DNA of 53,782 nt from Nitrospirota bacterium. Lineage in GTDB: Bacteria > Nitrospirota > Thermodesulfovibrionia > Thermodesulfovibrionales > Magnetobacteriaceae. Below are positions 1,964-52,610 of this stretch, one piece after another. The stretch is taken from assembly GCA_015233895.1 (NCBI GenBank), contig JADFXG010000019.1:1-53782 (forward strand). Reading direction: 5' to 3'. Position numbers and translations under genes: made by a program. Every line of letters starts with the position of its first letter. Positions within the stretch are counted from its first letter, which is position 1. Under the pieces are notes generated by a model, which had not been told where the DNA came from, did not search any database, and was given only the letters and a program-made list of their open reading frames with translations.

Positions 1964-2932
1964 TTAATGTAGTATAAGTGGATTGTTAATAAGTGCGTTA
2001 CTTTTGGCAGACCTAACCGTGTTTTCAAGAAGTGTGGCGATGGTTACCGGGCCCACACCACCAGGAACAGGCGTTATCAAAGAGGCTTTTTTTGCAACAG
2101 AGTTAAAATCTATGTCTCCAATTATTTTTCCATTCTGCTGTACATTTATCCCGATGTCCACTACAATTGCGCCCTCTTTTATCATATCACCCGTAATTAG
2201 GCCTGGCATTCCGGTAGCAGAGCACACAATGTCAGCGTTTATTAAGTAATCTTTTAAATTTGCCGTACTTTTATGGCACACCGATACGGTTGCTTCTTTT
2301 GCTAAAAGCATCATAGAAAGTGGCTTTCCCACTGCTAAACTCTTCCCTATTACTACAGCGTTTTTACCGACAAGGTCAACTCCGTAGTACTCCAGCAGCC
2401 TGATTACTCCAAAAGGTGTGCAAGGCAAAAAACTCTGAGACGTACATATGCTAAAATCGGCAGTCTTTTGTACTATATGCTGGCTGCCAGAGAATTCCTT
2501 GCCAAAAAGCTGAAACATGGACTCCTCAGCACTTAAACGCCCTACAGAAACTGAACCTAAACCGTCCACATCCTTATCTGGCACTATTGCGTTGACCACC
2601 CTTCTGGGGTTTATTCTTTTAGGAAGTGGAAATAACACAAGAAGCCCGTTTATACGCTCATCTGCATTTATACTACTAACAATGTTTAAGATTTCATTCA
2701 GAGATACATTGGTTGGCAGCTTATACTCAAAAACATTTATGCCCACACTTTTAGATATCTTCACTGTAGCATTGAAATAAGAACAGGAGGCGCTATTATC
2801 TCCTGCAAGTAAAAGTGCTAGTCCTACCTCTATGCCTGTTTTAGCAAGATTTTGGACGTCACGGCGTACGTTTTCCCTGATTTCTACTGCAAGCTTTGTG
2901 CCGTCCATTAATTTAACCATCTTTTGTATCAT
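1964..2932 (-). CDS. folD: FolD-like methylenetetrahydrofolate dehydrogenase/cyclohydrolase, aberrant
   Basis: FolD interconverts 5,10-methylene-, 5,10-methenyl- and 10-formyl-tetrahydrofolate in one-carbon metabolism. The fold is clear: K-D-V-D-G near 120, P-C-T-P-F-G, the VVIGKS-x2-VGKP nucleotide loop and the TPVPGGVGPVT end. By alignment to the well-studied human enzyme, Tyr52 and the Asp of DVDG (Asp123 here) are kept. The catalytic Lys56 is Thr56 (codon aca) and Gln100 is Leu100 (codon tta). A stretch of 36 residues separates VGRL from PCTP where Escherichia coli has eight. This makes the protein 322 residues instead of about 285-300. It may be a paralogue with altered or lost cyclohydrolase activity. 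The start could also be the ATG five residues in. Confidence 0.88.
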   Translation of the reverse strand: MIQKMVKLMDGTKLAVEIRENVRRDVQNLAKTGIEVGLALLLAGDNSASCSYFNATVKISKSVGINVFEYKLPTNVSLNEILNIVSSINADERINGLLVLFPLPKRINPRRVVNAIVPDKDVDGLGSVSVGRLSAEESMFQLFGKEFSGSQHIVQKTADFSICTSQSFLPCTPFGVIRLLEYYGVDLVGKNAVVIGKSLAVGKPLSMMLLAKEATVSVCHKSTANLKDYLINADIVCSATGMPGLITGDMIKEGAIVVDIGINVQQNGKIIGDIDFNSVAKKASLITPVPGGVGPVTIATLLENTVRSAKSNALINNPLILH

Positions 2933-21955: not shown

Positions 21956-24556
21956 CTACTGCTTTGAAAGAATGTCCAACAATTCCTCAAAAGATTTCTT
22001 GTCTGAATAGTTCGCCCTTTTTATATCATATAGCAATTCAGGAATATCCTTCTCATCGCAATCCTCCAGCATTAAGATGAAAACTTTTTTGCCTGTTGGA
22101 TTTTTAATATTTTTGCGTAGAGTTGCCCCATATTCTGCCTGAACCCAATTTGACTTTACAGAACTTTTACTCATACAAACCAGCATGTGTTTACTATTGC
22201 GCAAGCCATACTCTATATTATTTATTGTACGTTCACCATATATTATTTGCTCATGGTCAATCCAATAGGATATTCCTCTTTTTTTGAGATGATGCAGTAA
22301 CTTCTTGCTAATAGAACTCTTATCTACTGATGAGTAACTTATAAAAACGTCATAACTAATATCTCTTATTTGTTCAAAAAGATTTTTTATTAGTACAGTT
22401 GTGACTGATTTTCTACATTCAACTATAGTTTTACCTTTATTCTCTGCCTTAATAAGGTAACTATAATCATAGGTCTCGGTACAGTTTTTCTCACAGTTAC
22501 ACGGTATTATTAATTTAGGATTTATCCCCTTTGTCTTTTCATGGATGCGATCAAAATGTTCCCTGATGACGCCGATAAGCTCGCGCTTGTTATCGCCGCT
22601 GACTGTTATTTCTACTTTTTGTGCAACTGGGTCGGCTTTTATATAAGCATTTGTTTTAAGGCCGTCAGAAATTTTCTCTAATATAGTTCCGTTACGCCAG
22701 CACAAATAATTGTTTTCATTATCTCGTTTAATTAATTTGTGTGCTCTTACAATGAACCTTGGGATGACGCTTTTTGGCAAAAACTCGTATTCATAAATAA
22801 TTTTCGTGCCAATACTTAAATCATAGTCGGCATCAACGCTTTCCTTTGTTAAAGCGCTTGCTATTACATGATTTTTAGTATCATCCATCTGAAATGACAG
22901 TTCAAAATTTTTCATTAAACTAAGAAGCGTTGCATATTTTGACTGAGGATAAACATTTAAATCTTTCCATATTTCAGGCAAATCTTTTTCTTGTAAAATA
23001 CCTTTTCGTTCCAGCACTGCTCTTGACGAGACAATCTTATACACCGCATTAGTTCCCCATGAAGGTTTAATAATTATCGTATTACGCAACGTTAAATCAT
23101 CCTTGAAATGTAAAAATACGCCTAAATCATGAAGATATTCATCAAGCACCTTTTCGCCTCTTTCTTCAATCCCGTTATTTTTACAAACCGTTTGAAATTC
23201 CAAATAATCTATTTGTTTTCTTGAATCATTTTCAAATTGCTTTCTGATTTTTATCCAGGGCTCTGGCCACGGCGTACCCATGTGTGATAAATCGGCGGCT
23301 ATTTCAGCTATATTGGCTTTTAGTTTATCGAAGCTATCGTAGCCCTTATCAGGCTCCTTACAACTTACACGATAAAATCCCTGAATTATATCAGGGAATT
23401 TATCTTTTAAATCTTTTAAATTAATATCACCTGCGTATTCATCGTATTTATTAAGAACCAAAATAACCGGACTACCCTCACCAAATACCTTAATGGTATT
23501 AAGCCAGTGTTCAATCCTGCCGAATTCGTCTTCTTGCCTTGCATCCCACACAAGCATATAAACAGAGCGCTTTGTCAGGAAAAACTGATGGGTTGCGTGA
23601 TATATCTCCTGCCCGCCGAAATCCCATACGTTTAGCTTTATAACTATGTTATTTTGAGTTTTCAGAGTTAAAGGTTTTATTTCTATTCCTTCTGTGGATT
23701 CCTGGGTTTCCGAAAAAGTATCGTCAATTAATCGTTTTAAAATACTTGTCTTTCCAACGCCACCTTGACCGACAATTAATAGCTTTGCCTCGTATAGTTC
23801 TGTTATTTCTGGTTTTTGTTCTTTTGATTTTGTTTTTTTTGTTTCTTGTTCTTTTAATAAAGCAAAATACTCCTTTATCGCATCAATGCCCTTTGTTGCT
23901 ATTTCTATAGGCGGGATTAGAAGGGGGTTTTTTTGGACATCAAAATATGTTACCTTTGTAAGGTTTGCTATTTCAGGCGGAAGGTGCGTTAGTTGGTTGT
24001 CACTAATAGCAAGTTCTTTCAACTTAGTGAGTTTTCCAATCTCAGATGGAAGCTGATTTAGTTGGTTGTTATGAATATGAAGTTTTTGTAAGTTAGTGAG
24101 TTTTTTTATCTCAGGTGGAAGGTGCGTTAGTTGGTTTATACGAATAAAAAGTGTTTGCAGTTTAGTAAGTTTTCCAATCTCAGGCGGGAGCTGAATTAGT
24201 TGGTTATTATGTATAAAAAGTGTTTGCAGTTTGGTAAGGTTTCCAATCTCAGGCGGGAGCAGCGTTAGTTGGTTATTATTTATAGCAAGCGATTGTAAGT
24301 TAGTGAGTTTTCCAATCTCAGGCGGGAGACTTTCAAGTCGGTTTCTACTAATAGCAAGTTCTTTCAACCCGGTGAGTTTTCCAATCTCAGATGGAAGGTG
24401 CGTTAGTTGGTTGTTAGAAATATCAAGTTTTTGTAAGTTAGTTAGTTTTCCAATCTCAGGCGGGAGGGTTGTGATTTCTTTGTATGGTAAGAGTAACGAG
24501 CTTAAATTGCATTGATGCGCTTTATTGATTTCTTTTAATAATTCTTCTTCATCCAT
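21956..24556 (-). CDS. LRR-Roc-COR-TIR protein (bacterial ROCO with TIR effector)
   Basis: The 866-residue chain has four parts. Residues about 20-215 are eight 23-residue leucine-rich repeats (L-P-P-E-I-G-K-L-T-x-L). About 255-420 is a Roc GTPase with Walker A GQGGVGKTS, D-F-G-G-Q-E and N-K-Y-D. About 430-660 is a COR-like region. From about 735 to the end is a TIR domain (YDVFISYSS ... YWIDHEQI ... S-S-V-K-S-N-W-V-Q-A-E-Y-G) with the expected catalytic Glu near 808. TIR domains of this kind often cleave NAD+ and act in immunity; that role is inferred here. The start is ATG 24556, with GAGGAG upstream. The gene is solitary between glmU and htrA, flanked by short direct repeats. Confidence 0.9.
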   Translation of the reverse strand: MDEEELLKEINKAHQCNLSSLLLPYKEITTLPPEIGKLTNLQKLDISNNQLTHLPSEIGKLTGLKELAISRNRLESLPPEIGKLTNLQSLAINNNQLTLLPPEIGNLTKLQTLFIHNNQLIQLPPEIGKLTKLQTLFIRINQLTHLPPEIKKLTNLQKLHIHNNQLNQLPSEIGKLTKLKELAISDNQLTHLPPEIANLTKVTYFDVQKNPLLIPPIEIATKGIDAIKEYFALLKEQETKKTKSKEQKPEITELYEAKLLIVGQGGVGKTSILKRLIDDTFSETQESTEGIEIKPLTLKTQNNIVIKLNVWDFGGQEIYHATHQFFLTKRSVYMLVWDARQEDEFGRIEHWLNTIKVFGEGSPVILVLNKYDEYAGDINLKDLKDKFPDIIQGFYRVSCKEPDKGYDSFDKLKANIAEIAADLSHMGTPWPEPWIKIRKQFENDSRKQIDYLEFQTVCKNNGIEERGEKVLDEYLHDLGVFLHFKDDLTLRNTIIIKPSWGTNAVYKIVSSRAVLERKGILQEKDLPEIWKDLNVYPQSKYATLLSLMKNFELSFQMDDTKNHVIASALTKESVDADYDLSIGTKIIYEYEFLPKSVIPRFIVRAHKLIKRDNENNYLCWRNGTILEKISDGLKTNAYIKADPVAQKVEITVSGDNKRELIGVIREHFDRIHEKTKGINPKLIIPCNCEKNCTETYDYSYLIKAENKGKTIVECRKSVTTVLIKNLFEQIRDISYDVFISYSSVDKSSISKKLLHHLKKRGISYWIDHEQIIYGERTINNIEYGLRNSKHMLVCMSKSSVKSNWVQAEYGATLRKNIKNPTGKKVFILMLEDCDEKDIPELLYDIKRANYSDKKSFEELLDILSKQ

Positions 24557-24608
24557 TTTAAGCAAGCTCCTCGTGTATTGTTCTAATTAGTCCTGTTAAT
24601 GTGCAGTC

Positions 24609-44783: not shown

Positions 44784-45764
44784 TTAGAGGATGGGTTTTT
44801 TCCCAAATATCTTCGTCTTTGGAGGATTAATGATTTCGCTGTTATCCCATACTATCAGTTTCATCGCTTCTGTGAAAATACTGTCTTTATCGAGGCGGTT
44901 AAGCTTTCTCATCTCATCGTATGTGCCGTAGCCCACAGAGAAGGAGTCATCCAGTCCCATGCGTTTGAATTTAACATTATAGCCGGACTCTGCGATTATC
45001 TCGGCAATGGTACTGCCCAGGCCGCCGGTTATGGAGTGTTCCTCCACGGAAAGCAAAGCACCGGTTTCAATCATAGCTTTCAGAATAATTTCCGTGTCAA
45101 ATGGTTTTATGGTGTGAATATTGATAAGCCTTACGCTCATGCCAAATTTTTTAAGTTTATCTACGGCTTTCAGAGTTTCATAGACGATAGAGCCTGTGGC
45201 AATTATAGTAATGTCGCTGCCCTCTGTAAGTGTAACACCGCACCCTGGGATAAACTCATACGGGGCGTCATAAACTTTAGGGGTGCCACCGGTTGTGATT
45301 CTCATATAGACTGGGCCCTCAATTTTAGCAGCCGCCATGGTTGCATTATATGTCTCAAGGGGGTCGGATGGGGAAAATATTGTAAGCCCCGGAAGCACCC
45401 TCATCACAGTGATATCCTCGGTGTTGTGGTGGGTGGGCCCAAGGTTACTGTAGGCAAACCCGACGCCGATACCAATGAGTTTGACATTCATGTTTTGCAG
45501 ACAGACGTCGTTTCGCACCTGTTCGTATGCCCGGAATGTGATAAAATTTGAGATTGTATAGGCAAACGGAATGAGCCCGGTTGAAGCCATCCCTGCGGCC
45601 ATTCCAATCATGTTAGCCTCGGCAATGCCCGCGTTAATCAGCCGCTCAGGGAATGCCTCCCGGTACTTGTCAAAGACAATGGCCCCGTTATCGGCAATCA
45701 GTGAGATTATCCGGCTGTCACTTTCCGATAGCTCATAGAGCGCTTTTATGTATGCGTTTCTCAT
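44784..45764 (-). CDS. Transketolase C-terminal (pyrimidine-binding) subunit
   Basis: In split transketolases this half carries the pyrimidine and C-terminal domains. The start M-R-N-A-Y-I-K-A-L-Y-E-L at 45764 is preferred (GAGAG just upstream), not the longer frame to 45839, which would run through the end of the preceding gene. Motifs include I-N-A-G-I-A-E-A-N-M-I-G-M-A-A-G, A-Y-E-Q-V-R-N-D and V-E-E-H-S-I-T-G-G-L-G-S. 326 residues. The matching N-terminal half is at 49931-50755; the two are separated by about 4.2 kb of accessory genes. Confidence 0.88.
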   Translation of the reverse strand: MRNAYIKALYELSESDSRIISLIADNGAIVFDKYREAFPERLINAGIAEANMIGMAAGMASTGLIPFAYTISNFITFRAYEQVRNDVCLQNMNVKLIGIGVGFAYSNLGPTHHNTEDITVMRVLPGLTIFSPSDPLETYNATMAAAKIEGPVYMRITTGGTPKVYDAPYEFIPGCGVTLTEGSDITIIATGSIVYETLKAVDKLKKFGMSVRLINIHTIKPFDTEIILKAMIETGALLSVEEHSITGGLGSTIAEIIAESGYNVKFKRMGLDDSFSVGYGTYDEMRKLNRLDKDSIFTEAMKLIVWDNSEIINPPKTKIFGKKPIL

Positions 45765-45774
45765 AGTGTAACTC

Positions 45775-46386
45775 TCAATGGAATATCCAAACAGCACCAC
45801 CGCAAAGTATCGTAGCAACAATACTGGCAGCAACACCAAATAGAAATTCTTTAGTTTTTACTATTGCTGTCCAACTATTTATCTTTGCAACTTTCAAAAC
45901 ATCTACTTTTTCAAATAATTCTACTCCTATCCTGGTAGCTCTCTGATAGTATTCAACGCATGATATAGGGTTATTGCCAATATTTTGCATTTCAAATTTT
46001 CGTGCTTCCCTTCCCCTATCGAAAAATTGTTTAAACCCATTTAAAACATCCTCCTCGGGAAGATTAAAGGATAAACGCTTTGTTGGTTGTGCAATGATAA
46101 GTTGATCAAGCTTCGATCTTAAAGATGCCCAGACAAGTTTGTTTAAATCTATGACAGCACGAATTAAATGGTTTTCCGACTTTATTAGATTGTCATTTCG
46201 GGTATCCTCATCAAGAGTATCATTATAGAATTGACATAAGTGGGATAGAAAATTAGACTCCTCTATTAAAATCTGCATTGGCTTTACACCTTGAAGAGCT
46301 ATAAGATCTGCATATATTGGAAGGAACTGTTCTCTGTATAGAATGAATACTTTTTCGACAGATTTTCCTGAGTTATCTAAGGGCAT
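45775..46386 (-). CDS. Unknown protein with C-terminal membrane helix
   Basis: A 203-residue mostly helical protein that ends with a single hydrophobic helix (F-G-V-A-A-S-I-V-A-T-I-L-C-G-G-A-V-W-I-F), so it is a tail-anchored membrane protein. I do not recognise the family. Its start overlaps the end of the 68-residue upstream gene by 14 bases, so the two are translationally coupled. It lies within the block inserted between the transketolase genes. Confidence 0.6.
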   Translation of the reverse strand: MPLDNSGKSVEKVFILYREQFLPIYADLIALQGVKPMQILIEESNFLSHLCQFYNDTLDEDTRNDNLIKSENHLIRAVIDLNKLVWASLRSKLDQLIIAQPTKRLSFNLPEEDVLNGFKQFFDRGREARKFEMQNIGNNPISCVEYYQRATRIGVELFEKVDVLKVAKINSWTAIVKTKEFLFGVAASIVATILCGGAVWIFH

Positions 46387-46665: not shown

Positions 46666-47139
46666 TCAGGCCAACTCTGTAAAAGTCCCTTTTGCATAGC
46701 GAAATTTACCGTTGAGTTCGCCCATTTTATCCCTAATATCTTTACGGGCTATAGCATCAACATCAGGAACATTTGCTCCTAACTCTGACACCACAATATA
46801 AGAGTTTACCACATTGGCTTCTTTAAAAAATCGTTTGTTTTCATATAAGTAAATGAGTGTAAGAATTTGCTGTATTCCACGTCTAAAATTTGTGCCTTTA
46901 AGTTCAATAATATAGAGAATTTTATCATCGTTATTTATAATGAGAAAATCCGGTTTTTTATTATGGTCAGCAATTACACATTTGTCTATTTTTACTTTAC
47001 AAATATCTTTTCCCGATACGTTTTTAATTATAAAGCTGGACTTTTTCTCTGAAGCGATAAACTCTGGGTCTGTTCCGCTCTGTTCTACGCACTTATATTC
47101 AACCTCGCATTCCTGTACAAACATCTCACAAATATTCAT
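46666..47139 (-). CDS. Putative PD-(D/E)xK nuclease, partner of the ATPase
   Basis: The core reads K-K-P-D-F-L-I-I-N-N-D-D-K-I-L-Y-I-I-E-L-K-G, which fits the PD-(D/E)xK active site (Pro-Asp, then Glu-x-Lys after about 15 residues). A downstream Gln in R-R-G-I-Q-Q-I matches the RecB/Holliday-type subgroup. 157 residues. It starts seven bases after the ATPase gene ends. Gene pairs of an SMC/ABC-like ATPase and a small nuclease are usual in defence systems. The nuclease call is by motif only. Confidence 0.6.
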   Translation of the reverse strand: MNICEMFVQECEVEYKCVEQSGTDPEFIASEKKSSFIIKNVSGKDICKVKIDKCVIADHNKKPDFLIINNDDKILYIIELKGTNFRRGIQQILTLIYLYENKRFFKEANVVNSYIVVSELGANVPDVDAIARKDIRDKMGELNGKFRYAKGTFTELA

Positions 47140-47146
47140 ATTTTAA

Positions 47147-48445
47147 TCAATCATCCAGGTCATAAAGCTTATCAAATCTTTCATTTAGCATATCGGACAC
47201 TTTATCAATTTCAGCGGCATCTATGATATTATGTTTTTCGCTGATTATGTCCCGGGTTTTACCCTCGTCAATAAAATGGACTCCCGTTTTATTAATATCA
47301 ACCCATAACGTTTTGTCTATTATTTCTGAAACTTTTGCAGCCTTATTTTTATCTTTACCGATATTTCCGGCATATATCAGGTTATTAAACGCAGTCAGAA
47401 TGTAGGGGCTGTGTGTTGTGATAAGCACCTGGCTGCCGGTGTGGTTCATAACAAACGCTATTAGTTCCACAAGGTCTTTTTGTGCCACAGGATAAAGGTG
47501 TGCCTCCGGCTCCTCTATTACCAAAAAAACTTTTTGTTTTTTTAATACTATCAGAAAGAGAATATTTAATATCCACAAAGTCTCCTGCTGCCCTGATGAT
47601 GCGTACTGAAGCGGTATATATTTTCTTCCCTCTTCAAAGTATATCCGCTCCCCGGAATTTGTATATCTATACTCACCCTTTAAGATTTTATACATTTGCT
47701 TTATGACATAATCAATTTCTGCTCTGTATGCTTTTTCACCAGTAAGAGATTCTTGAAATGTTACTACTTTATCAGGGGAGTTTGTAAATAAACTTTTATT
47801 AACGGTTATTCTGCCAATGTGTTCACTCATAAGATAATCAAGTGCATCAAGTGATATTTTTAGTATTTGCTCCGCAGCTACCGTCACAAAGCTTCTGCCT
47901 GCAGGAATATAAATCGGGATAGTATGGTCGTCAAATAACTCCTCAACCTCTTTCTCTAATTGGTTTAAGTACTGCTGTCTTTCCTCTCTTAAACTGCTGA
48001 TTTCAACTGAGGATAATTCAGTCTTTAACCTACCATCTATTTCCGCAAAATCTTTGCCTATGGCTTCCCTTTTTCTTATTATTTCATTAAGACTGTAAAC
48101 CATGTTTTTACTGAAACCTGCTGCACCATGCACAAAGTCTATAAACATATCAGACTTATAAGTGTACCTCGCTAAATAATCTTCAGCATCAAGAATTATT
48201 GGTCCAAATGATTTGATTACACTGGATACAAACCTCCTTGCCATATTGCTCCGGGTTTCCTCCACTGAAACAACATCTTTTCTAAGCTGCTTAGCGACAA
48301 TATCCTTGAAAGATTTAAAAAGATAAATCCACTTACTAATCGTGCTTTTGCCGCTTGCCTGCGGGCCGATAAAGAGCATCAGGTCTTTTACCGGCAGTGT
48401 TACGTCTTTAAGCGGCCCGAACTCTTTTATTTCTATCTCGTGCAC
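47147..48445 (-). CDS. AAA/ABC-type (AAA_21-like, OLD-like) ATPase
   Basis: The 432-residue protein starts with GTG 48445 (M-H-E-I-E-I-K-E-F-G-P-L) with no strong ribosome site. It has Walker A I-G-P-Q-A-S-G-K-S-T (residues about 26-35), an ABC-signature-like S-S-G-Q-Q-E, Walker B F-L-V-I-E-E-P-E-A-H-L-Y-P near 305 and the T-T-H-S-P-Y-I-L switch. This is the layout of stand-alone ATPases in defence systems (OLD, Septu and related). There is no TOPRIM domain; the nuclease may be the separate next gene. It is transcribed leftward and overlaps no other gene. Confidence 0.85.
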   Translation of the reverse strand: MHEIEIKEFGPLKDVTLPVKDLMLFIGPQASGKSTISKWIYLFKSFKDIVAKQLRKDVVSVEETRSNMARRFVSSVIKSFGPIILDAEDYLARYTYKSDMFIDFVHGAAGFSKNMVYSLNEIIRKREAIGKDFAEIDGRLKTELSSVEISSLREERQQYLNQLEKEVEELFDDHTIPIYIPAGRSFVTVAAEQILKISLDALDYLMSEHIGRITVNKSLFTNSPDKVVTFQESLTGEKAYRAEIDYVIKQMYKILKGEYRYTNSGERIYFEEGRKYIPLQYASSGQQETLWILNILFLIVLKKQKVFLVIEEPEAHLYPVAQKDLVELIAFVMNHTGSQVLITTHSPYILTAFNNLIYAGNIGKDKNKAAKVSEIIDKTLWVDINKTGVHFIDEGKTRDIISEKHNIIDAAEIDKVSDMLNERFDKLYDLDD

Positions 48446-49930: not shown

Positions 49931-50755
49931 TTAAATAATCCCAAGCTCCATCTTAGCAGTTTTCATCTCCGTCTCGTTGGGCATTCTGAAGTGCCAAATC
50001 GGTACGTTTTCCATGAAAGAGACCCCTTTGCCTTTTGTCGTGTGGGCAATTATCACGGTGGGTTTGCCGGTAACTTTTGGCGTTGAATTAAAGATCTCAA
50101 TCAGCTTTTCCATATCGTGGCCATCAGCTTCTGTTACAGTCCAGTTAAACGCTTTCCACTTATCCACAAAAGGCTCAAGCGGTATGATGTTATCCAGAAA
50201 ATCCATAGCCTGCATTTTATTGTAATCAACTATAACAACAAGATTATCCAGTTTAAACTGAGGGGCACTCATTGCGGCCTCCCAGATGGAACCCTCCTGA
50301 CATTCGCCATCCCCAAGCAACACAAACACTTTGTAGCTGGCACGATTGAGTTTAGCGGCCATTGCCACCCCTATCCCAAATGGCAGGCCATGCCCAAGGG
50401 CGCCGGTTGAGGCCTCAATCCCGGGCACTTTGCACATATCCGGGTGTCCGCCCAAAATACTGCTGCATTTGCCAAATCTCTGTAGCTCCTCCGGGTCAAA
50501 AAAACCCTTCATAGCAAGTGCCGCATAGAGAGATACACAGGCATGTCCCTTGCTGAGAATAAACCGGTCACGGGCGGGGTCAGACGGATTCTTAGGGTCA
50601 ACATTTAGACAGCCGCCATAGTAGAGCGCCGTTAATATCTCAACAATTGACAGCGAGGCTGGAATGTGCCCCCCGCCACCGTTACAGATGGTTTCAAATG
50701 TTTGCTGCCGAATCCTGTGCGCTATGTCTTTTAAATTATCCACTGATCTCTCCAT
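49931..50755 (-). CDS. Transketolase N-terminal (TPP-binding) subunit
   Basis: This half binds the thiamine diphosphate pyrophosphate. The G-D-G-E ... N motif (G-D-G-E-C-Q-E-G-S-I-W-E-A, followed by V-D-Y-N-K-M-Q) and S-K-G-H-A-C-V-S-L-Y-A-A-L and G-H-P-D-M are typical of split transketolases. 274 residues. Just after its stop a strong AGGGGGAGG remains although no gene follows; this looks like the former ribosome site of the C-terminal subunit, now 4.2 kb away. The 5' end overlaps a decayed HepT fragment. Confidence 0.9.
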   Translation of the reverse strand: MERSVDNLKDIAHRIRQQTFETICNGGGGHIPASLSIVEILTALYYGGCLNVDPKNPSDPARDRFILSKGHACVSLYAALAMKGFFDPEELQRFGKCSSILGGHPDMCKVPGIEASTGALGHGLPFGIGVAMAAKLNRASYKVFVLLGDGECQEGSIWEAAMSAPQFKLDNLVVIVDYNKMQAMDFLDNIIPLEPFVDKWKAFNWTVTEADGHDMEKLIEIFNSTPKVTGKPTVIIAHTTKGKGVSFMENVPIWHFRMPNETEMKTAKMELGII

Positions 50756-51505: not shown

Positions 51506-52429
51506 TTATGGACATGACCATAATTGTCTTTTTTTAACTATGCTATTCATTATAATAAGCAATTTATGCATACAGGCGACTATCGCTACTTTAGGTTGTT
51601 TACCGGCTTTACGGAGTCTGTCATAAAATTCTTTGATAACTGGATTATAACTGATTGCTGAAATTGTACACATATACAATATTTCTCTTACTTGTGCTCT
51701 GCCTCCCCAGATAAACCTGTTACCACGATGTTTACCACTATCCTTGTTAAGTGGCGCTACACCTACAAGAGCTGATATCTCTTTTTGATTTAATTTCCCG
51801 ATTTCTGTCAGCTCTGTTATTATTGTAAATGTCATAACAGGACCAACACCTGGAATCGAACTTATCAGTACACTGAGTTCATTCCATTCAGAGTTTTCTT
51901 TTATCTTTTCTGATAAAAGAGTCTCTATCTCCTTTTGTTTGTCAGTTAACCACTTGATATGCTCCGTTATATCTCTTTTCATTTCCGTTGAGGCTATTTG
52001 TAAACGATTTCTTTCGTCTCTGAGCATAGAGGCTATTTGTCTTCTGCGAGTAAGTAATTCATCGAGTTTTTTATTTCTGTTGTCCTGAAATAAACGTATT
52101 TCCATCTTTTCACCAAAAAGTGCTATCACTTGTGAATCAATTTTGTCTGTTTTTGCCAATATCCCACTTGCTCTTGCAAAGTCTCTTACTTTCTTTGGGC
52201 TTATAATCCCTACCTTTATCCCGTTATCTGCAAAGGTAAGAGCCAATTCTTTTTCATAACCCGATGTTGCCTCCATTACTACTGTTACTTCCCCTATCTT
52301 TTTTATCTGACTTACCAAATTAGTTAAACCCTCTTCATCATTTGAAACTATAAAGTGCTTACCATTAGAACCTACTGATACATCCAACTTAAGTTTACTA
52401 ATATCAATCCCTAAAATAGTTGCTTCCAT
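51506..52429 (-). CDS. IS110-family transposase (DEDD)
   Basis: The N-terminal RuvC-like part has the acidic residues in T-I-L-G-I-D-I-S-K, M-E-A-T-S-G-Y-E and K-T-D-K-I-D-S-Q. The C-terminal Transposase_20 part has S-I-P-G-V-G-P-V, A-L-V-G-V-A-P and K-H-R-G-N-R-F-I-W-G-G. The family start is M-E-A-T-I-L-G-I-D (ATG 52429); the frame extends to 52477 but that is probably leader. IS110 enzymes are guided by a bridge RNA from the non-coding end. The gene is intact. Confidence 0.92.
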   Translation of the reverse strand: MEATILGIDISKLKLDVSVGSNGKHFIVSNDEEGLTNLVSQIKKIGEVTVVMEATSGYEKELALTFADNGIKVGIISPKKVRDFARASGILAKTDKIDSQVIALFGEKMEIRLFQDNRNKKLDELLTRRRQIASMLRDERNRLQIASTEMKRDITEHIKWLTDKQKEIETLLSEKIKENSEWNELSVLISSIPGVGPVMTFTIITELTEIGKLNQKEISALVGVAPLNKDSGKHRGNRFIWGGRAQVREILYMCTISAISYNPVIKEFYDRLRKAGKQPKVAIVACMHKLLIIMNSIVKKRQLWSCP

Positions 52430-52610
52430 AATCTGACTACCCATCCTTGTAATATCCGGGTTAAGCGACCCTACCAACCGTTCGGGTTAATTTCAGATAG
52501 ATGTAACGACCCTTGCTTCAGGACGAGTTCATATACCCACGGGGACTCACGGCCTGTTGCACCCCTATGACATATTGCACATACGTGCATCATATCATCT
52601 CTATTAATAT
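52430..52610 (-). ncRNA. Candidate IS110 bridge RNA (upstream non-coding end)
   Basis: The transposase of this IS110 element is preceded by about 180 non-coding bases rich in pairing. They include a GCAC-gtat-GTGC hairpin, a stem bracketed by CAGG and CCTG with a long loop, and two copies each of AGGGTCG and TTAACCCG. In known IS110 elements the bridge RNA comes from the non-coding end next to the transposase start. Ends and loops are not resolved here, and the RNA is predicted from position and structure only. Confidence 0.4.

Follow-up and report, generated by a model that had tools for sequence, protein, structure and literature searches.

The catalytic residues of bifunctional FolD enzymes include Lys56 and Gln100 (human MTHFD1 numbering, which is used here for Tyr52, Lys56, Gln100 and Asp125). 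Two further residues bind the substrate: the pABA ring of folate packs against Tyr52, and the pterin is held by Asp125 (PMC3368264). Work with E. coli FolD has shown that the K54N mutation, which corresponds to Lys56, lowers the cyclohydrolase below detection and the dehydrogenase to about 19%, and that Q98H, which corresponds to Gln100, lowers them to about 1% and 8%, respectively. Both mutations were selected in E. coli as carolacton resistance (PMC5688156). Yeast MTD1 is a monofunctional NAD-dependent methylene-tetrahydrofolate (THF) dehydrogenase (Barlowe and Appling 1990, cited in PMC6443876), and its dehydrogenase has been characterized in work that PMC11064299 and PMC6443876 cite. Human MTHFD2 also uses NAD+, holding phosphate on Arg201 and Arg233 and Mg2+ on Asp168 and Asp225, and its arginines can take either free phosphate or the 2'-phosphate of NADP (PMC9173628).

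Results

We analyzed a 53,782-nucleotide stretch of DNA from a Nitrospirota bacterium (contig JADFXG010000019.1 of assembly GCA_015233895.1), referred to as the window. Open reading frame and domain searches placed a gene at positions 1964..2932 on the minus strand, encoding a protein of 322 residues with its stop codon inside these coordinates; all features of the gene given below lie on the same strand. Residues 9-123 match PF00763 (104.6 bits, cut-off 32.8) and residues 165-311 match PF02882 (208.5 bits, cut-off 27), and because both scores exceed the curated cut-offs the protein belongs to the FolD/MTHFD family. Among the 25 best NCBIfam FolD models listed, the window protein falls under every cut-off (best score 321, cut-off 423). 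The genome's own canonical FolD clears both PRK10792 (373.4, cut-off 355) and PRK14186 (346.1, cut-off 333). We use the name FolD2 for the subfamily that shares the changes of the window protein, of which 67 sequences were read.

A first-pass annotation of this DNA had proposed that the protein keeps Tyr52 and the aspartate of the DVDG motif, and that unambiguous codons encode Thr in place of Lys56 and Leu in place of Gln100. Alignment and codons bear this out. Tyr52 is encoded by TAT (2777..2779), and Asp123 (2564..2566) is the pterin-binding Asp125 of MTHFD1. The position of the catalytic lysine carries Thr56 (ACA, 2765..2767), and Leu100-Phe101 (TTA and TTT, 2630..2635) stand at the Gln100-Leu101 positions, so that both catalytic residues of bifunctional FolD are missing. 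Every one of the 67 FolD2 sequences has Thr or Ile at position 56 and Leu, Phe or Ile at position 100, and all retain Tyr52 and Asp125. A sequencing error, which relatives with Lys and Gln would have exposed, was ruled out together with chance: none of the FolD2 homologues retains Lys56 or Gln100, and the changes recur in independent assemblies, even where identity with the window protein falls to about 55%. The same 67 homologues, with a dN/dS of about 0.1 (0.083 and 0.105 against the two nearest orthologues), rule out a pseudogene. In sequence, no nearby lysine stands in for the lost one: the Lys58 of the window protein is not conserved, and other FolD2 members have N, S, G, R, M or I at this position.

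The window protein has 36 residues between its VGRL and PCTP motifs (residues 134-169, 2426..2533) where canonical FolD has eight, just as originally reported. Across the subfamily this stretch is 21-39 residues long (n=67), compared to 8, 10 or 11 in canonical bacterial FolDs (n=86). Its first ten residues are conserved in FolD2 as A-A-[DE]-E-S-T-x-Q-[LI]-F (SAEESMFQLF in the window protein, residues 134-143, 2504..2533) and are predicted to extend a helix; the remainder is variable. AlphaFold2 models this helix with 17 residues in FolD2 (127-143) and with eight in the canonical FolD of the same genome (124-131). The variable part (residues 144-164, 2441..2503) has pLDDT values below 50 and is predicted to form a disordered loop. 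Glu136, a presumed metal ligand, sits in the extended helix. Most simply, this helix may contribute to a cofactor-metal site and the loop may be a flexible linker or docking segment.

The AlphaFold2 model as a whole (pLDDT 86, pTM 0.84) has the FolD fold, with C. jejuni FolD (3p2o) as its best structural match (Z 38.9, rmsd 1.7, 282 residues aligned). FolD2 shares both domains, the fold, Tyr52, Asp125 and the PGGVGP loop with this enzyme, with E. coli FolD (1b0a) and with the canonical FolD of its own genome, all of which differ from it in retaining Lys56 and Gln100. The model also aligns with yeast MTD1 (1edz; Z 31.4, rmsd 2.0, 276 aligned). The MTD1 query sequence agreed with PDB 1edz along its full length of 320 residues. 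Like FolD2, MTD1 (1edz, 1ee9) keeps the tyrosine and has Thr in the Lys56 column (Y-x-x-x-T), has lost Gln100 (Tyr in its place) and has Phe in column 101, so that V-Y-F-P replaces V-Q-L-P. FolD2 thus shows the MTD1-type pattern of a replaced Lys56, a lost Gln100 and a retained Tyr52. The MTD1 loop before PCTP is also lengthened, to 17 residues that lack the FolD2 motif, and its cyclohydrolase is supplied by another cellular enzyme. Unlike FolD2, MTD1 has Glu at the Asp125 position and lacks the FolD2 cofactor residues described below. Because MTD1 is fungal and 30% identical to FolD2, the resemblance would most simply be convergence; identity to canonical bacterial FolDs is 46-49%.

To map the cofactor site, an MTHFD2 fragment that matched PDB chains over all 127 residues was aligned to FolD2. 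At the phosphate-binding columns, Lys197 (2342..2344) corresponds to Arg201 of MTHFD2 and Lys221 (2270..2272) to Arg233, which is Ser197 in MTHFD1. The first is Lys in 67/67 FolD2 and Arg in 86/86 canonical sequences, and the second is Lys or Arg in 66/67 FolD2, with Ser or Thr in canonical FolD. At the Mg2+ columns, Glu136 (2525..2527) corresponds to Asp168 and Glu213 (2294..2296) to Asp225; an acidic residue is present in 67/67 and 65/67 FolD2, respectively, where canonical sequences have Gly or Asp and mostly Asn or His. FolD2 therefore carries an MTHFD2-type quartet of two basic and two acidic residues, with Lys in place of Arg201. Human MTHFD2 itself is bifunctional; in contrast with FolD2, it retains both catalytic residues (Lys88, Gln132) and lacks a long insert ahead of PATP. 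The quartet predicts that FolD2 may use NAD+ with phosphate and Mg2+, a suggestion drawn from four alignment columns. Three observations weigh against it: the Arg201 column holds Lys in FolD2, the Arg233 column holds Arg in E. coli FolD as well, which is NADP-linked, and NAD-specific yeast MTD1 does without the quartet.

The window belongs to a genome assembly of 65 contigs that is rated 100% complete. The first-pass annotation had recommended a search for a second, normal FolD or for Fhs plus FchA. The genome holds exactly one FolD besides FolD2, on contig 41, with the Tyr, Lys, Gln and Asp residues all in place and an eight-residue loop. This gene adjoins a MetV-like gene (methylene-THF reductase C-terminal domain) and the genes for GTP cyclohydrolase I (folE) and 5-formyl-THF cyclo-ligase, and MetF lies about 0.8 kb away on the same contig. 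The Fhs half of the alternative was also found, as one formyl-THF synthetase in this genome and in 56 of the 60 genomes searched (its own and relatives), but FchA was absent from all 60, which rules it out as the partner cyclohydrolase of FolD2. Because an intact canonical FolD is present and FchA is absent, the canonical enzyme must supply the cyclohydrolase and FolD2 is a paralog.

FolD2 is present in 54 of 245 Nitrospirota genomes, and its range takes in one family in a part of the phylum outside the class of the window genome. Within the set of 60 it occurs in 35 genomes, or in 30 of the 53 good ones. The 23 good genomes that lack it include a same-genus, single-contig genome that is 99% complete, and FolD2 is therefore dispensable. 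In a tree built after removal of the insert and trait columns, and with yeast MTD1 left out, the 63 FolD2 rows form a single clade (SH-aLRT 100) that needs one label change. Among the best 80 loci of a pattern scan across 84,980 species, a method that reaches close relatives only, none outside Nitrospirota was a FolD2. The cofactor motifs, the PGGVGP loop, Tyr52 and Asp125 are conserved in FolD2. FolD2 is an old, single-origin paralog that is spread across several Nitrospirota families and is under purifying selection. One genome (G024; L129, L130) has two FolD2 genes besides canonical FolD, one inside the CoM operon described below and the other solitary beside DnaJ/HspR/ClpB-like genes. Apparent FolD2 fusions in G072 and G133 (frames of 736 and 564 residues) were rejected as upstream open frames in GC-rich DNA.

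The FolD2 gene of the window is solitary; its two neighbors, an FGE-sulfatase-domain gene and a gene for a protein of no known family, are both on the opposite strand. It has no conserved neighbors, and the flanking genes differ even in the same-genus genome G002. In four other genera of the family to which the window genome belongs, FolD2 follows atpB-like, atpE-like and metallo-beta-lactamase-like genes (named by sequence). No RNA families were found in the window. Elsewhere it encodes, all on the minus strand, a Roco-type LRR-Roc-COR-TIR protein whose TIR domain is C-terminal (21956-24565), an IS110-family transposase (51506-52477) and, at 46666-48445, an AAA_15 ATPase with AriA as its best PADLOC match and a neighboring small open reading frame with weak PDC-M29B similarity. 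The latter two are flanked by apparent halves of a transketolase (44784-45839, 49931-50755).

In six genomes, FolD2 occupies the identical slot of a CoM-type operon, with the order MtrH, MtaA-type CoM methyltransferase, corrinoid protein, Fe-S protein, RACo, DUF6951, FolD2, HdrE-like membrane subunit, HdrD-like protein, cysteate synthase and sulfopyruvate decarboxylase. The operon shows FolD2 among C1 carriers. Other genomes have the same operon without FolD2, the slot being vacant or holding a sensor-like gene; it contains two adjacent, very similar sensor-like open reading frames (157 and 159 residues) at L214:7063-8043 and a related 516-residue chemoreceptor-like protein at L215. CoM operons were seen at L037:223-11339 and at L127, L129, L035, L039, L040, L205, L206, L208 and L211-L215. 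With its CoM biosynthesis genes, MtrH, RACo and HdrD/HdrE-like proteins, the operon likely represents a bacterial CoM methyl-transfer system; our literature search found no description of a CoM operon in Nitrospirota. Operon membership requires at least four changes on the FolD2 tree, which fits both ancestral residence followed by later moves and repeated entry.

A general link between FolD2 and the MtrH operon was rejected: the two show no association in the 53 good genomes (Fisher p 0.24), and MtrH is absent from the window genome. Cysteate synthase scores above its NCBIfam cut-off in 28 of the 245 Nitrospirota genomes. Phylum-wide, FolD2 is associated with this enzyme (15/28 compared to 39/217, p 1e-4), an association confounded by descent. 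A link to CODH/ACS was uninformative, with CdhC in 53/53 good genomes.

Discussion

The first-pass annotation left open whether the protein performs part of the FolD reaction or a new one. The partial reaction is the better supported reading, because the whole clade lacks Lys56 and Gln100 yet retains the residues that bind folate, Tyr52 and Asp125; the E. coli K54N mutant and the Thr of MTD1 also favor it, and a new reaction found no support. On these comparisons, we think it likely that FolD2 is a monofunctional 5,10-methylene-THF dehydrogenase, for which the cofactor columns suggest NAD(H) with phosphate and Mg2+. The enzyme would bind methylene-THF in the manner of FolD through Tyr52 and Asp123, hand the hydride to the nicotinamide cofactor and release 5,10-methenyl-THF, or run in the reverse direction. 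Without Lys56 and Gln100, it would leave methenyl-THF unhydrolyzed and form no 10-formyl-THF; hydrolysis would then depend on the bifunctional, canonical FolD that the genome also encodes, or proceed slowly and spontaneously. The pattern of charges at the adenosine ribose resembles that of human MTHFD2 and suggests that NAD(H) is used together with phosphate and Mg2+, which would give the cell an NAD-linked enzyme alongside canonical FolD. Against this, FolD2 is dispensable, both lost residues also aid the dehydrogenase step, as the residual activities of K54N and Q98H indicate, and MTHFD2 is bifunctional despite the same quartet.

The cofactor is where another reading comes closest. FolD2 could be a monofunctional dehydrogenase that uses NADP(H), with Lys197 and Lys/Arg221 gripping the 2'-phosphate directly, given that these columns are basic and that the same arginines of MTHFD2 accept either ligand. 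We regard this as possible but less likely: the acidic Mg2+ columns (Asp/Glu136 and Glu213), for which a plain NADP site has no known use, are conserved as well, and canonical Nitrospirota FolD has Arg197 with Ser/Thr221. With two catalytic residues gone, a new conserved helix motif, a disordered loop and only low residual activity in the corresponding E. coli mutants, FolD2 might instead be dead or nearly so, acting as a regulator or partner subunit that docks through the helix and loop. This seems unlikely to us, since strong purifying selection has conserved the cofactor motifs, the PGGVGP loop, Tyr52 and Asp125, and since MTD1, a characterized dehydrogenase, likewise has Thr in place of Lys56.

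The clade-specific active-site changes (Thr56, Leu100 and Phe101) and substitutions elsewhere could also signal a different reaction or another C1 carrier. The pterin- and pABA-binding residues are unaltered, however, and MTD1 pairs the same change with ordinary methylene-THF chemistry, which makes such a departure very improbable. Least probable of all is a spare isozyme tolerant of an inhibitor such as carolacton. The two E. coli resistance positions are indeed those altered in FolD2 (PMC5688156), but the subfamily is deeply conserved among Nitrospirota, which are anaerobic, nothing points to a resistance island, a presumably sensitive canonical FolD is retained, and the insert and the cofactor-site changes would be left unexplained. 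Set against these alternatives, FolD2 is probably monofunctional and perhaps NAD-linked; we infer its retained dehydrogenase, its lost cyclohydrolase, its NAD preference, the direction of flux and the role of the insert. As to its origin, FolD2 might have arisen as an NAD-linked C1-oxidizing enzyme of the CoM methyl-transfer operon, with the helix and loop docking a partner, and later have been kept alone in lineages like that of the window, a history that we consider quite unlikely.

FolD2 has shed its cyclohydrolase residues in the manner of yeast MTD1 and has acquired an MTHFD2-like cofactor pattern. The subfamily offers some 70 natural sequences for probing how separable the two FolD activities are. 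If FolD2 is NAD-linked, it would alter the electron draw in the folate branch of the Wood-Ljungdahl pathway in the Nitrospirota that carry it, and genome reconstructions would misstate its activity as well as its cofactor by scoring it as a bifunctional FolD.
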